Below are positions 2,709 through 4,849 of a stretch of 24,194 nucleotides of DNA, piece by piece. Positions within the stretch are counted from its first letter, which is position 1. The number at the start of each line of letters is the position of its first letter. The stretch is taken from contig JAJYAE010000028.1 in NCBI GenBank assembly GCA_021779695.1, forward strand, positions 1 to 24,194, given 5' to 3'. Source of the stretch: Acidobacteriota bacterium (lineage in GTDB: Bacteria; Acidobacteriota; Terriglobia; Terriglobales; Acidobacteriaceae). Below the pieces are notes generated by a model. The model was not told the origin of the DNA. It was given only the letters and a program-made list of their open reading frames with translations, and searched no databases. The position numbers and the translations under genes are program-made.

Positions 2709-4004
2709 TTATGAGATGAGCAGAGCGGGACAGATGGTCCCACTGCATTCTCCAAAGCCAATGCGCGGGAGCCCTAACTTTTGTGCATGCGCGCGCAGAA
2801 TGACTGTGTCGCCATCTTCAAGATAGCGACGTTGCTCCCCGCTCGGAAGTTGAATAGGGGATGGGTGTGCCGTCATCTCGAGGAGGCATCCCTCACTGCC
2901 TCTTTGAGGACCTGAGATCGTGCCTGTCGCAAGCATGTCTCCCGGTCGAAGATTGCAACCGTTGCTGGTCTGATGAGCAACCATCTGAGCAGGACTCCAA
3001 TACAGATTCTTAAGATTGGAAGTTGTGAGCAGGACGGGAGCGTCCTGCAATTGACGCATGCGCTCGGACTGAAGGTAGACCTGCAAAGTGAGGTCCAACC
3101 CAGTTAGGATTCCCGGCGGCGATTGCAAATAGGCAAGGGGCTGCGGGTCGTCGTCTGCTCGTTTGGCAGCAGGAGAACGAAATGGCGCGAGGGCTTCCAA
3201 CGGCACGATCCAGGGAGAGATTGTCGTCGCAAAACTTTTCCCCAGGAAAGGACCCAACGGTTGATATTCCCATGATTGGATGTCGCGCGCAGACCAGTCG
3301 TTCACCAGACAAAGACCAAAAATATACTGTTCGGCTTCACTGACCGGGATAGGCTGCCCCAGCCTGTTTCCAGGGCCGATGATGAGCCCCATCTCCAATT
3401 CGAAGTCGAGGGACCGGGTTGGACCGAAGATGGGATCGTGACCACCAAGCTTGATTTGTCCGCAGGGTCTGCGAATGGATTCCCCAGTGAGGATGATGGA
3501 AGAGCTGCGGCCGTGATAACCAATGGGGATGTGTTTATAGTTTGGCAGCAGTGGATTCTCAGGACGAAAGAGGCTGCCAACGCGCGTCGCATGGTGAATT
3601 GACGCATAAAAGTCGGTGTAATCGCCGATGGAAACTGGGAGTTCCAGTCGTACGTCGGTCTGCTGAAAAAGGTGAGGCAGAAGACGTTGCTGAAGCGAGG
3701 AACCTTTCGTGTCAGCGGCGAGCAACTCTGTCAGCCGATTTCGCAAAGCAGCCCAGGCGGTGGGGCCCAGCGCCAAAAGGGGATTGAGCGTTGCTGCGGC
3801 GCATGCTTCAGCGACGGGTTGAGACAAGTCCGAGAGAAGCCCGCCAACGGCACAACCGTAGAGATCGAGAAGTCGATCTCCGATGGCAGTGCAGAGATGC
3901 GAATTGCCTTCGTGCTGAAACACTCCGTATGGGAGATTCTGGAGAGGGAAATCAGAAGTGGGATCGTTTGCGCTTTCGATCCAACTTAACTGGCCTGCAG
4001 CCAT
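2709..4004 (-). CDS. fahA: Fumarylacetoacetase, last step of tyrosine degradation
   Basis: This enzyme hydrolyses fumarylacetoacetate to fumarate and acetoacetate in the cytoplasm. The 431 residues match the usual ~420. Family residues (human numbering in brackets) are visible: metal ligands D131 (D126) in DYTDFY, E202 and E204 (E199, E201) in DFELEMG, and D236 (D233) in NDWSARDIQ. The catalytic base is H138 (H133), and K256 (K253) lies in GPFLGKSF. The N-terminal SH3-like domain is present. It is the last gene of the operon. Its ATG lies 19 nt inside the preceding unknown gene and has its own GGAGG site 7 nt upstream, so translation is probably coupled. The acetoacetate product links it to scoAB at 8844-10200. 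Confidence 0.97.
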   Translation of the reverse strand: MAAGQLSWIESANDPTSDFPLQNLPYGVFQHEGNSHLCTAIGDRLLDLYGCAVGGLLSDLSQPVAEACAAATLNPLLALGPTAWAALRNRLTELLAADTKGSSLQQRLLPHLFQQTDVRLELPVSIGDYTDFYASIHHATRVGSLFRPENPLLPNYKHIPIGYHGRSSSIILTGESIRRPCGQIKLGGHDPIFGPTRSLDFELEMGLIIGPGNRLGQPIPVSEAEQYIFGLCLVNDWSARDIQSWEYQPLGPFLGKSFATTISPWIVPLEALAPFRSPAAKRADDDPQPLAYLQSPPGILTGLDLTLQVYLQSERMRQLQDAPVLLTTSNLKNLYWSPAQMVAHQTSNGCNLRPGDMLATGTISGPQRGSEGCLLEMTAHPSPIQLPSGEQRRYLEDGDTVILRAHAQKLGLPRIGFGECSGTICPALLIS

Positions 4005-4849
4005 CCTAGCGCCTCCAAATCTTCAATGGGTTCGGTGAATGAGCAGGATCCAATGCTCATGAGTGAATTGCGTCTCCATTCTGCGATTTGAGAAATCGTC
4101 CAGATCGCATCTTTCCATTGGATGCAGTCGTCCGCGATTCTCCATGCGGATGGATCCTCTTCTGTGAGCAACTTTGCTGCATCTTGCAAGCTGCCGCCAA
4201 AGTGTAGCAGAGCAGAGGCGCAGCAAAAATTGAGGAAGCCGTGCATCATTGCACGCGGGGCAGTCGAATCGCTGGAAAGGAAGTGGAAGGATCGAATGGG
4301 GTGATGGAGACCGGCAGTGGCTTTGAAAGGAAGTCTGGAGATTGCAAGTTGCTGCAGTGCGACGGCTACGGTGTCTGGATCAGGGATGGCTGAGGAAGTG
4401 ACTCCACCCATGCGGATCTTCGCACGCCCGCCACACGAGCTGACGGCGGAAAGGATGTCCCTTGTGACATTCGCAACTGGAATTTCAAAGTAAGGAATAA
4501 TTTCAGATGGCAATTTCAGAGATAGGGAACAGATTTGAGCAGAACTGTCGGCCTTCACTTCAACGGCTTGTATATTGAGTGGGGGCAATTTGACAGAGTC
4601 ACTTTCCACCCAAGGGGGTGTGCCTAATCCCGTGACACTCAAGGGGAAATTGTAGTTTGAGTCAATCAGAATCTGATGCAGCGCAGAGAGTTGAAAAACT
4701 GGCACAACGAAGGATCCAAGATAGCGCTTCTGCGGGCCCCTCGAATTGTGCAGATAGTTCTCGACGGCAGCAGAGAGCGAAAGGTTGGCTGGGGGAAACA
4801 GCCCGGCGTAGTCGAAGAGGTTAGAAAGCAGACAATCGAGCGCAGTCAC
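3986..4849 (-). CDS. Conserved protein of unknown function embedded between hmgA and fahA (candidate maleylacetoacetate isomerase replacement)
   Basis: This encodes 287 residues from a GTG start. I recognise the pattern as a conserved family usually called hypothetical, not a named enzyme. Visible blocks: DYAGLFPPA (13-21), EVK (97-99), YFEIP (120-124), KIRMGG (144-149), PFKATAGLHHP (174-184), MHGFLN (202-207) and a C-terminal IGSCSFTEP (266-274). Charged residues at predicted strand ends (E97, E122, K144, K176, H182, H183) suggest a TIM-barrel-like enzyme; that is inference. There is no signal peptide or membrane segment. The GTG overlaps the hmgA stop by 4 nt (GTGA), and its end overlaps fahA by 19 nt, so all three are likely co-translated. 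The pathway step between its neighbours, maleylacetoacetate to fumarylacetoacetate, has no recognisable GST-zeta enzyme here, which makes isomerase the leading guess. Confidence 0.85.
   Translation of the reverse strand: MTALDCLLSNLFDYAGLFPPANLSLSAAVENYLHNSRGPQKRYLGSFVVPVFQLSALHQILIDSNYNFPLSVTGLGTPPWVESDSVKLPPLNIQAVEVKADSSAQICSLSLKLPSEIIPYFEIPVANVTRDILSAVSSCGGRAKIRMGGVTSSAIPDPDTVAVALQQLAISRLPFKATAGLHHPIRSFHFLSSDSTAPRAMMHGFLNFCCASALLHFGGSLQDAAKLLTEEDPSAWRIADDCIQWKDAIWTISQIAEWRRNSLMSIGSCSFTEPIEDLEALGWLQAS

Follow-up and report, generated by a model that had tools for sequence, protein, structure and literature searches.

X is an uncharacterized 287-aa protein encoded in the tyrosine degradation operon of an Acidobacteriota bacterium (GenBank assembly GCA_021779695.1, contig JAJYAE010000028.1, positions 1 to 24,194; this whole stretch of 24,194 nucleotides is referred to as the window). 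X is probably a glutathione-independent maleylacetoacetate cis-trans isomerase that links the product of homogentisate 1,2-dioxygenase (HmgA) to the substrate of fumarylacetoacetase (FahA) in bacteria without the isomerase MaiA. We infer this role because of the slot that X occupies in the operon, its co-occurrence with FahA and, by exclusion, the absence of MaiA.

Textbooks assign the maleylacetoacetate step of bacteria and humans to a glutathione-dependent isomerase. Without MaiA, the tyrosine/homogentisate degradation pathway has a gap in many bacteria that do not make glutathione. In the window, the operon is read on the minus strand from 8293 to 2709 in the order hppD, phenylalanine 4-monooxygenase, hmgA, X, fahA, and the neighbors of X were identified by curated models:

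6947..8293, minus strand: hppD, 4-hydroxyphenylpyruvate dioxygenase (TIGR01263; the match begins at residue 94)
6177..6929, minus strand: phenylalanine 4-monooxygenase (NF008877, 293 bits)
4846..6180, minus strand: hmgA, homogentisate 1,2-dioxygenase, the producer of maleylacetoacetate (TIGR01015, 689.7 bits)
3986..4849, minus strand: X, 287-aa uncharacterized protein with a GTG start, predicted alpha/beta (TIM) barrel
2709..4004, minus strand: fahA, fumarylacetoacetase (TIGR01266, 502.8 bits)

The true start of hppD probably lies downstream of the TTG at 8293. Two steps of the pathway have no gene in the operon, transamination and the isomerization of maleylacetoacetate to fumarylacetoacetate, as a first-pass annotation of the DNA had proposed. 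A tblastn search of the window with the Sphingobium MaiA gave no match at E<=0.01. The start of X overlaps the stop of hmgA by 4 nt (GTGA), and X overlaps the fahA open reading frame (ORF) by 19 nt. The first-pass annotation had described the 287-residue ORF with the same coordinates and overlaps and had not named its strand.

X is not a chance ORF, since the two closest relatives share 83% and 80% identity with it along the whole protein and a search with the window's protein returned 6811 homologues at E<=1e-3, out of 7995 scored. A second family member used as query gave 1506 matches. Where the 120 matches listed for each of these two queries carry a source name, it is usually 'hypothetical protein'; 'Transaldolase' (window query) and 'HpcH/HpaI aldolase' (the other query) are isolated exceptions. 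X itself has no match in Pfam or NCBIfam even at E<=1, which, together with its predicted barrel, bears out the earlier view that it has no glutathione S-transferase (GST) features. When 48 relatives were compared to Pfam, no common family emerged, and the ten weak matches (E 0.016-0.81) each occurred in a single member. A sequence search of the PDB with X found nothing meaningful.

Genome contigs were scanned with an alignment of X, and the best 80 of 580 confirmed loci were examined (loci and genomes carry L and G numbers, respectively). By record title, these loci belong to Acidobacteriota, Gemmatimonadota, Phycisphaerae, Chloroflexota, Cyanobacteria, Chlorobi, and others. X is followed by a same-strand fahA within 500 bp at 63 of the 80 loci. 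At four loci, fahA is 0.7-2.8 kb downstream of X, at one it is on the opposite strand, and at 12 none was found in the stretch examined. An HmgA match on the same strand lies within 3 kb upstream of X at 26/80 loci. A subset of 50 X-bearing genomes, mostly those with longer contigs, was picked from the 80 loci before any MaiA or whole-genome FahA results were available. FahA is present in all 50: it is over the cut-off in 49, and in the remaining genome it is split into two pieces that lie on separate contigs. The 50 include 11 genomes whose X has no adjacent same-strand fahA in the stretch examined (L013, L019, L028, L033, L039, L054, L058, L061, L062, L071, and L074). Thus, the association with unrelated pathways that the first-pass annotation had considered as a counter-argument was not encountered in these 50 genomes. 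The loci where X is not near fahA in the stretch examined, with FahA elsewhere in the same genome, include several Phycisphaerae and two with cyanobacterial titles, L061 and L062 (the others are L019, L039, L058, and L074).

In the Acidobacteriota draw (the phylum of G008, n=149), FahA is over the cut-off in 33 genomes, and X is found in 25 of these and in none of the 116 FahA-negative genomes (Fisher p 8.5e-22, or 3.8e-21 without the X-positive genome at the center of the draw). In the Planctomycetota draw (the phylum of G035), 9/156 genomes encode FahA. All nine carry X (8/8 without the X-positive center genome), and X is absent from the 71 FahA-negative genomes that were searched, out of 147. 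Because FahA is a minority gene in both draws, its presence in 50/50 X-positive genomes is far above background. In the Cyanobacteria draw, FahA occurs in 1/146, and that one is the center genome, so that no rate can be estimated. The draw for G050 (L079), which is titled Deltaproteobacteria, consists of the same genomes as that of the Acidobacteriota center G008 and so contributes no further group; the title probably misplaces this record.

MaiA (TIGR01262) is over the cut-off in none of the 50 X-positive genomes, with weaker matches in six, five of them cyanobacteria. The same holds for the 149 Acidobacteriota, where none is over the cut-off and weaker matches occur in 27 genomes, three of them X-positive. 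Among 14 control genomes, the same search put TIGR01262 over the cut-off in one. In G001, the genome of the closest relative examined (its X is 80% identical to that of the window), TIGR01262 gave nothing at E<=0.001. These counts agree with a mutual exclusion of X and MaiA, which the first-pass annotation had suggested as a test. The accompanying expectation, that X would track the absence of glutathione, holds for the 45 of 50 X-positive genomes without glutathione synthetase (TIGR01380) and fails for the remaining five, all cyanobacteria by title (G020, G021, G032, G040, and G044). A strict tie of X to absent glutathione was therefore ruled out, with GshB as the gene searched. One further X-positive genome, titled Leptolyngbya (L062, G041), differs from these five in that neither glutathione synthetase nor a GST was matched; the title may misplace it.

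Plasmids were also examined, in a set of 72,556 records. FahA is found in 119 of them, of which the best 40, 60, and 60 were named in three listings. With the window's protein as query, X was found on 23 records (the best 20 of 23 listed), and the Rhodococcus X as query added Tsukamurella. On 24/24 X-bearing plasmids, X is directly upstream of fahA, with the aligned parts 5-107 bp apart. These plasmids are all from Gram-positive or cyanobacterial hosts: Streptomyces (11), Priestia (6), Pseudonocardia (2), Rhodococcus (2), Nonomuraea (1), Tsukamurella (1), and the cyanobacterium Kovacikia (1). The gene order is hppD-X-fahA-hisC-hmgA in Priestia, hmgA-X-fahA in Pseudonocardia and Tsukamurella, cupin protein-X-fahA in Rhodococcus, and X-fahA in Streptomyces. 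In all seven annotated plasmid neighborhoods, X is annotated 'hypothetical protein'. In the tally by genus, no X was found on plasmids of the Pseudomonadota, a phylum covered by plasmids only, though many of these plasmids carry fahA. A Sphingobium plasmid has the order hmgA-fahA-maiA, and some Pseudomonadota plasmids have maiA annotated beside fahA (the best 60 of 220 MaiA plasmid records were listed). The Sphingobium MaiA searched against nine plasmid stretches gave no match at E<=0.01 except in its own Sphingobium source. On a plasmid of Nocardia farcinica, which is the sole non-Pseudomonadota FahA record without X among the plasmid records listed, an HmgA-like ORF runs straight into fahA.

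The HmgA-like proteins of Pseudonocardia and Rhodococcus pass both Pfam HgmA cut-offs but score ~60 bits versus the 511-bit cut-off of TIGR01015, and are thus distant HmgA types. In the genome loci, a distant HmgA type (~23-29% identical to the window HmgA) occurs with X at L012, L015, L028, L040, L068, and L079, and a distant type is also found with X at L105, L108, and L109, annotated 'cupin' in Rhodococcus. X goes with the distant HmgA type too and, therefore, tracks FahA and not one HmgA type. A role on the products of FahA would fit this linkage equally well. In such a scheme, X acts after FahA: FahA or X hydrolyzes maleylacetoacetate to maleate and acetoacetate, and X isomerizes maleate to fumarate. 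We regard this as quite improbable. X has two invariant lysines in a predicted barrel like that of class I aldolases, which suggests Schiff-base chemistry on a ketone, and maleate has no ketone. Moreover, neither X nor its 48 relatives match a known maleate isomerase family in Pfam.

Several observations weigh against X as the isomerase. In eight of the 33 FahA-positive Acidobacteriota, two profiles detect no X and MaiA does not reach its cut-off, so that not every genome with FahA needs X. In one of these (L095, G083), an hppD-PAH-hmgA-fahA operon at 3989-8531 (PAH, phenylalanine 4-monooxygenase) closely resembles that of the window and contains no X. Lastly, the five cyanobacteria with glutathione synthetase carry X, without MaiA over the cut-off.

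The eight FahA-positive, X-negative Acidobacteriota were searched for a divergent, hidden X, and none was found by a second, broader profile or around fahA. Glutathione synthetase (TIGR01380) is found in 0/8. The surroundings of fahA were also inspected for a gene that might replace X there, and the neighbors of ~1,050-1,090 aa are RND transporters (L094, L098-L101) and an outer-membrane receptor (L095). In three of them, a gene of the dimethylarginine-dimethylaminohydrolase family (PF19420) adjoins hppD near fahA (L094:7582-8454, L099:7781-8689, and L101:7796-8704). This gene is possibly another solution to the isomerization, or it is unrelated. In the genomes that have FahA and neither X nor MaiA, either isomerization proceeds without a dedicated enzyme or there is a third solution.

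The eight genomes, in which the step is apparently possible without X or MaiA, and the Nocardia farcinica record also fit a different role, in which X is an accessory of FahA (assembly, metal loading, or product channeling) and isomerization is spontaneous or is carried out by bacillithiol, mycothiol, CoA, or cysteine. This role appears unlikely. The residues that are invariant in 323/323 sequences lie on the strands and strand ends of the predicted barrel, where they look like an active site rather than a surface for interactions. Nor does FahA in itself depend on X, because fahA is on many Pseudomonadota plasmids where no X was found (e.g., hmgA-fahA-maiA).

The AlphaFold model of X is an alpha/beta barrel (pLDDT 92.5), and its structural matches are TIM barrels that cover residues 1-287. 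K144, K176, C269, E97, E122, R146, and H182 are identical in 323/323 sequences and, in the predicted model, sit on strands or strand ends. The first-pass annotation had suggested a barrel enzyme with Lys/His chemistry, and the predicted TIM barrel and the invariant K144, K176, and H182 are in line with this. H183, which had been grouped with these residues, is conserved in only 207/323, and H203 of the MHGFLN block in 276/323. The GSCSFTEP block is conserved as had been noted; its invariant C269 had not been singled out. The codons of interest are:

4412..4420, minus strand: K144, I145, and R146, with K144 and R146 invariant, in a predicted barrel strand ahead of a GG turn
4301..4324, minus strand: K176-A-T-A-G-L-H-H183, with K176 and H182 invariant
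4043..4045, minus strand: C269, invariant, directly after the last barrel strand

In MaiA, the glutathione thiol adds at C2 of maleylacetoacetate, rotation follows, and the thiol is eliminated. A thiol-plus-iminium form of this addition-rotation-elimination is plausible for X. The proposal derives from the predicted barrel and from the invariant residues in it, one thiol and a pair of lysines. One of the lysines, K144 or K176, would react with the C4 ketone of maleylacetoacetate to give an iminium, activating the conjugated double bond. The C269 thiolate could then add at C2, the C2-C3 bond would rotate, and the trans isomer would be freed when the thiolate is eliminated. In this way, C269 would do from within the protein what the glutathione thiol does in MaiA, and R146 and H182 may hold the carboxylates.

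More tentatively, and with a little less than even confidence, X could be the founder of a new family of TIM-barrel cis-trans isomerases in which a lysine iminium works together with a cysteine of the protein itself instead of the glutathione thiol. For Acidobacteriota, Planctomycetota, Gemmatimonadota, and Chloroflexota that have no glutathione synthetase, such a family would complete the degradation of tyrosine/homogentisate. It would do so as well in Actinomycetota and Bacillota, which use thiols other than glutathione, and in some cyanobacteria.

The best VIA-align match of the model is deoxyribose-phosphate aldolase (DERA), a class I aldolase. This match, with the single relatives named transaldolase or HpcH/HpaI aldolase, would suit an X that acts on a toxic side product, for instance by retro-aldol/retro-Claisen cleavage of maleyl- or fumarylacetoacetate or of succinylacetone. 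Such a function is highly improbable, as it leaves isomerization without a known enzyme in 50/50 X-positive genomes that have no MaiA over the cut-off, and C-C cleavage is already done by FahA. DERA proper is present in 24 of 25 genomes tested, 22 of them X-positive. X as a sequence homologue of DERA was considered and rejected, since no homology was found by single sequence and a 24-sequence profile comparison gave a probability of 1.5%.

Divergent from the operon and next to it are:

8256..8783, plus strand: Lrp/AsnC-family regulator
8844..10200, plus strand: two CoA-transferase subunits (PF01144 twice)

The CoA-transferase subunits likely activate the acetoacetate product. Adjoining the tyrosine operon at 10211-14967 (minus strand) are enoyl-CoA hydratase, HMGL-like, acyl-CoA dehydrogenase, and carboxyltransferase genes, a set that looks like leucine degradation. 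The leucine and tyrosine pathways share acetoacetate as an end product, and the CoA-transferase subunits lie between both gene sets. At 209-2668 (plus strand), an 819-aa protein with a partial DUF5916 match is encoded convergently with fahA. At 20507-22157 (plus strand), a molybdopterin oxidoreductase gene is followed by an overlapping gene for a ferric-reductase-like membrane protein, a pair that resembles MsrPQ.

If X is the isomerase, thousands of proteins without a function (6811 matches from one member and 1506 from another) would gain one, and pathway reconstructions would be completed in several phyla. The cofactor-free flipping of a conjugated double bond would be open to study, in a protein that is unrelated to human GSTZ1 and yet would catalyze the same reaction. 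In the open-access literature, as covered by titles and the starts of abstracts, with few subscription papers and no preprints, neither the X family nor a glutathione-independent isomerase for this step was recognized. In the parts of PMC11889516 that were available, HmgC is the isomerase of the pathway scheme and no Rhodococcus gene is assigned to it, and the glutathione-dependent route is the one described in the available parts of PMC10950700.

X shares its proposed reaction and pathway slot with MaiA/GSTZ1 (zeta class, TIGR01262), and maiA can adjoin hmgA and fahA, as in Sphingobium. MaiA/GSTZ1 has the GST fold (thioredoxin-like plus helical), whereas X is a predicted TIM barrel with no GST sequence match. 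The mycothiol-dependent maleylpyruvate isomerase (DinB-like) of Actinomycetota also carries out a non-GST cis-trans isomerization of a ring-cleavage product without glutathione. It uses mycothiol and has a fold other than the TIM barrel of X. Unlike this enzyme, X and its 48 relatives have no DinB/MDMPI match in Pfam, and some Actinomycetota carry X. Maleate cis-trans isomerase, of the Asp/Glu racemase superfamily, is cofactor-free, has a fold of its own, and uses an enzyme cysteine as nucleophile, as is proposed for C269 of X. However, its substrate has no ketone, and X and the 48 relatives have no Asp/Glu/hydantoin racemase match in Pfam.

DERA (DeoC, TIGR00126) and the class I aldolases have the barrel fold in common with the model of X. 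In DERA, K167 is the Schiff-base lysine and K201 is the helper lysine. K144 and K176 of X are in strands that match those of K167 and K201 by strand order alone, and by the same order the invariant E97 is at the place of the acid/base D102. Unlike DERA, X has no TIGR00126 or Pfam DeoC family match, has an invariant Cys after its last strand, and belongs to a different pathway. As the proposed isomerase, X would be a new type of enzyme, not homologous to those already described, for a step of a known pathway.
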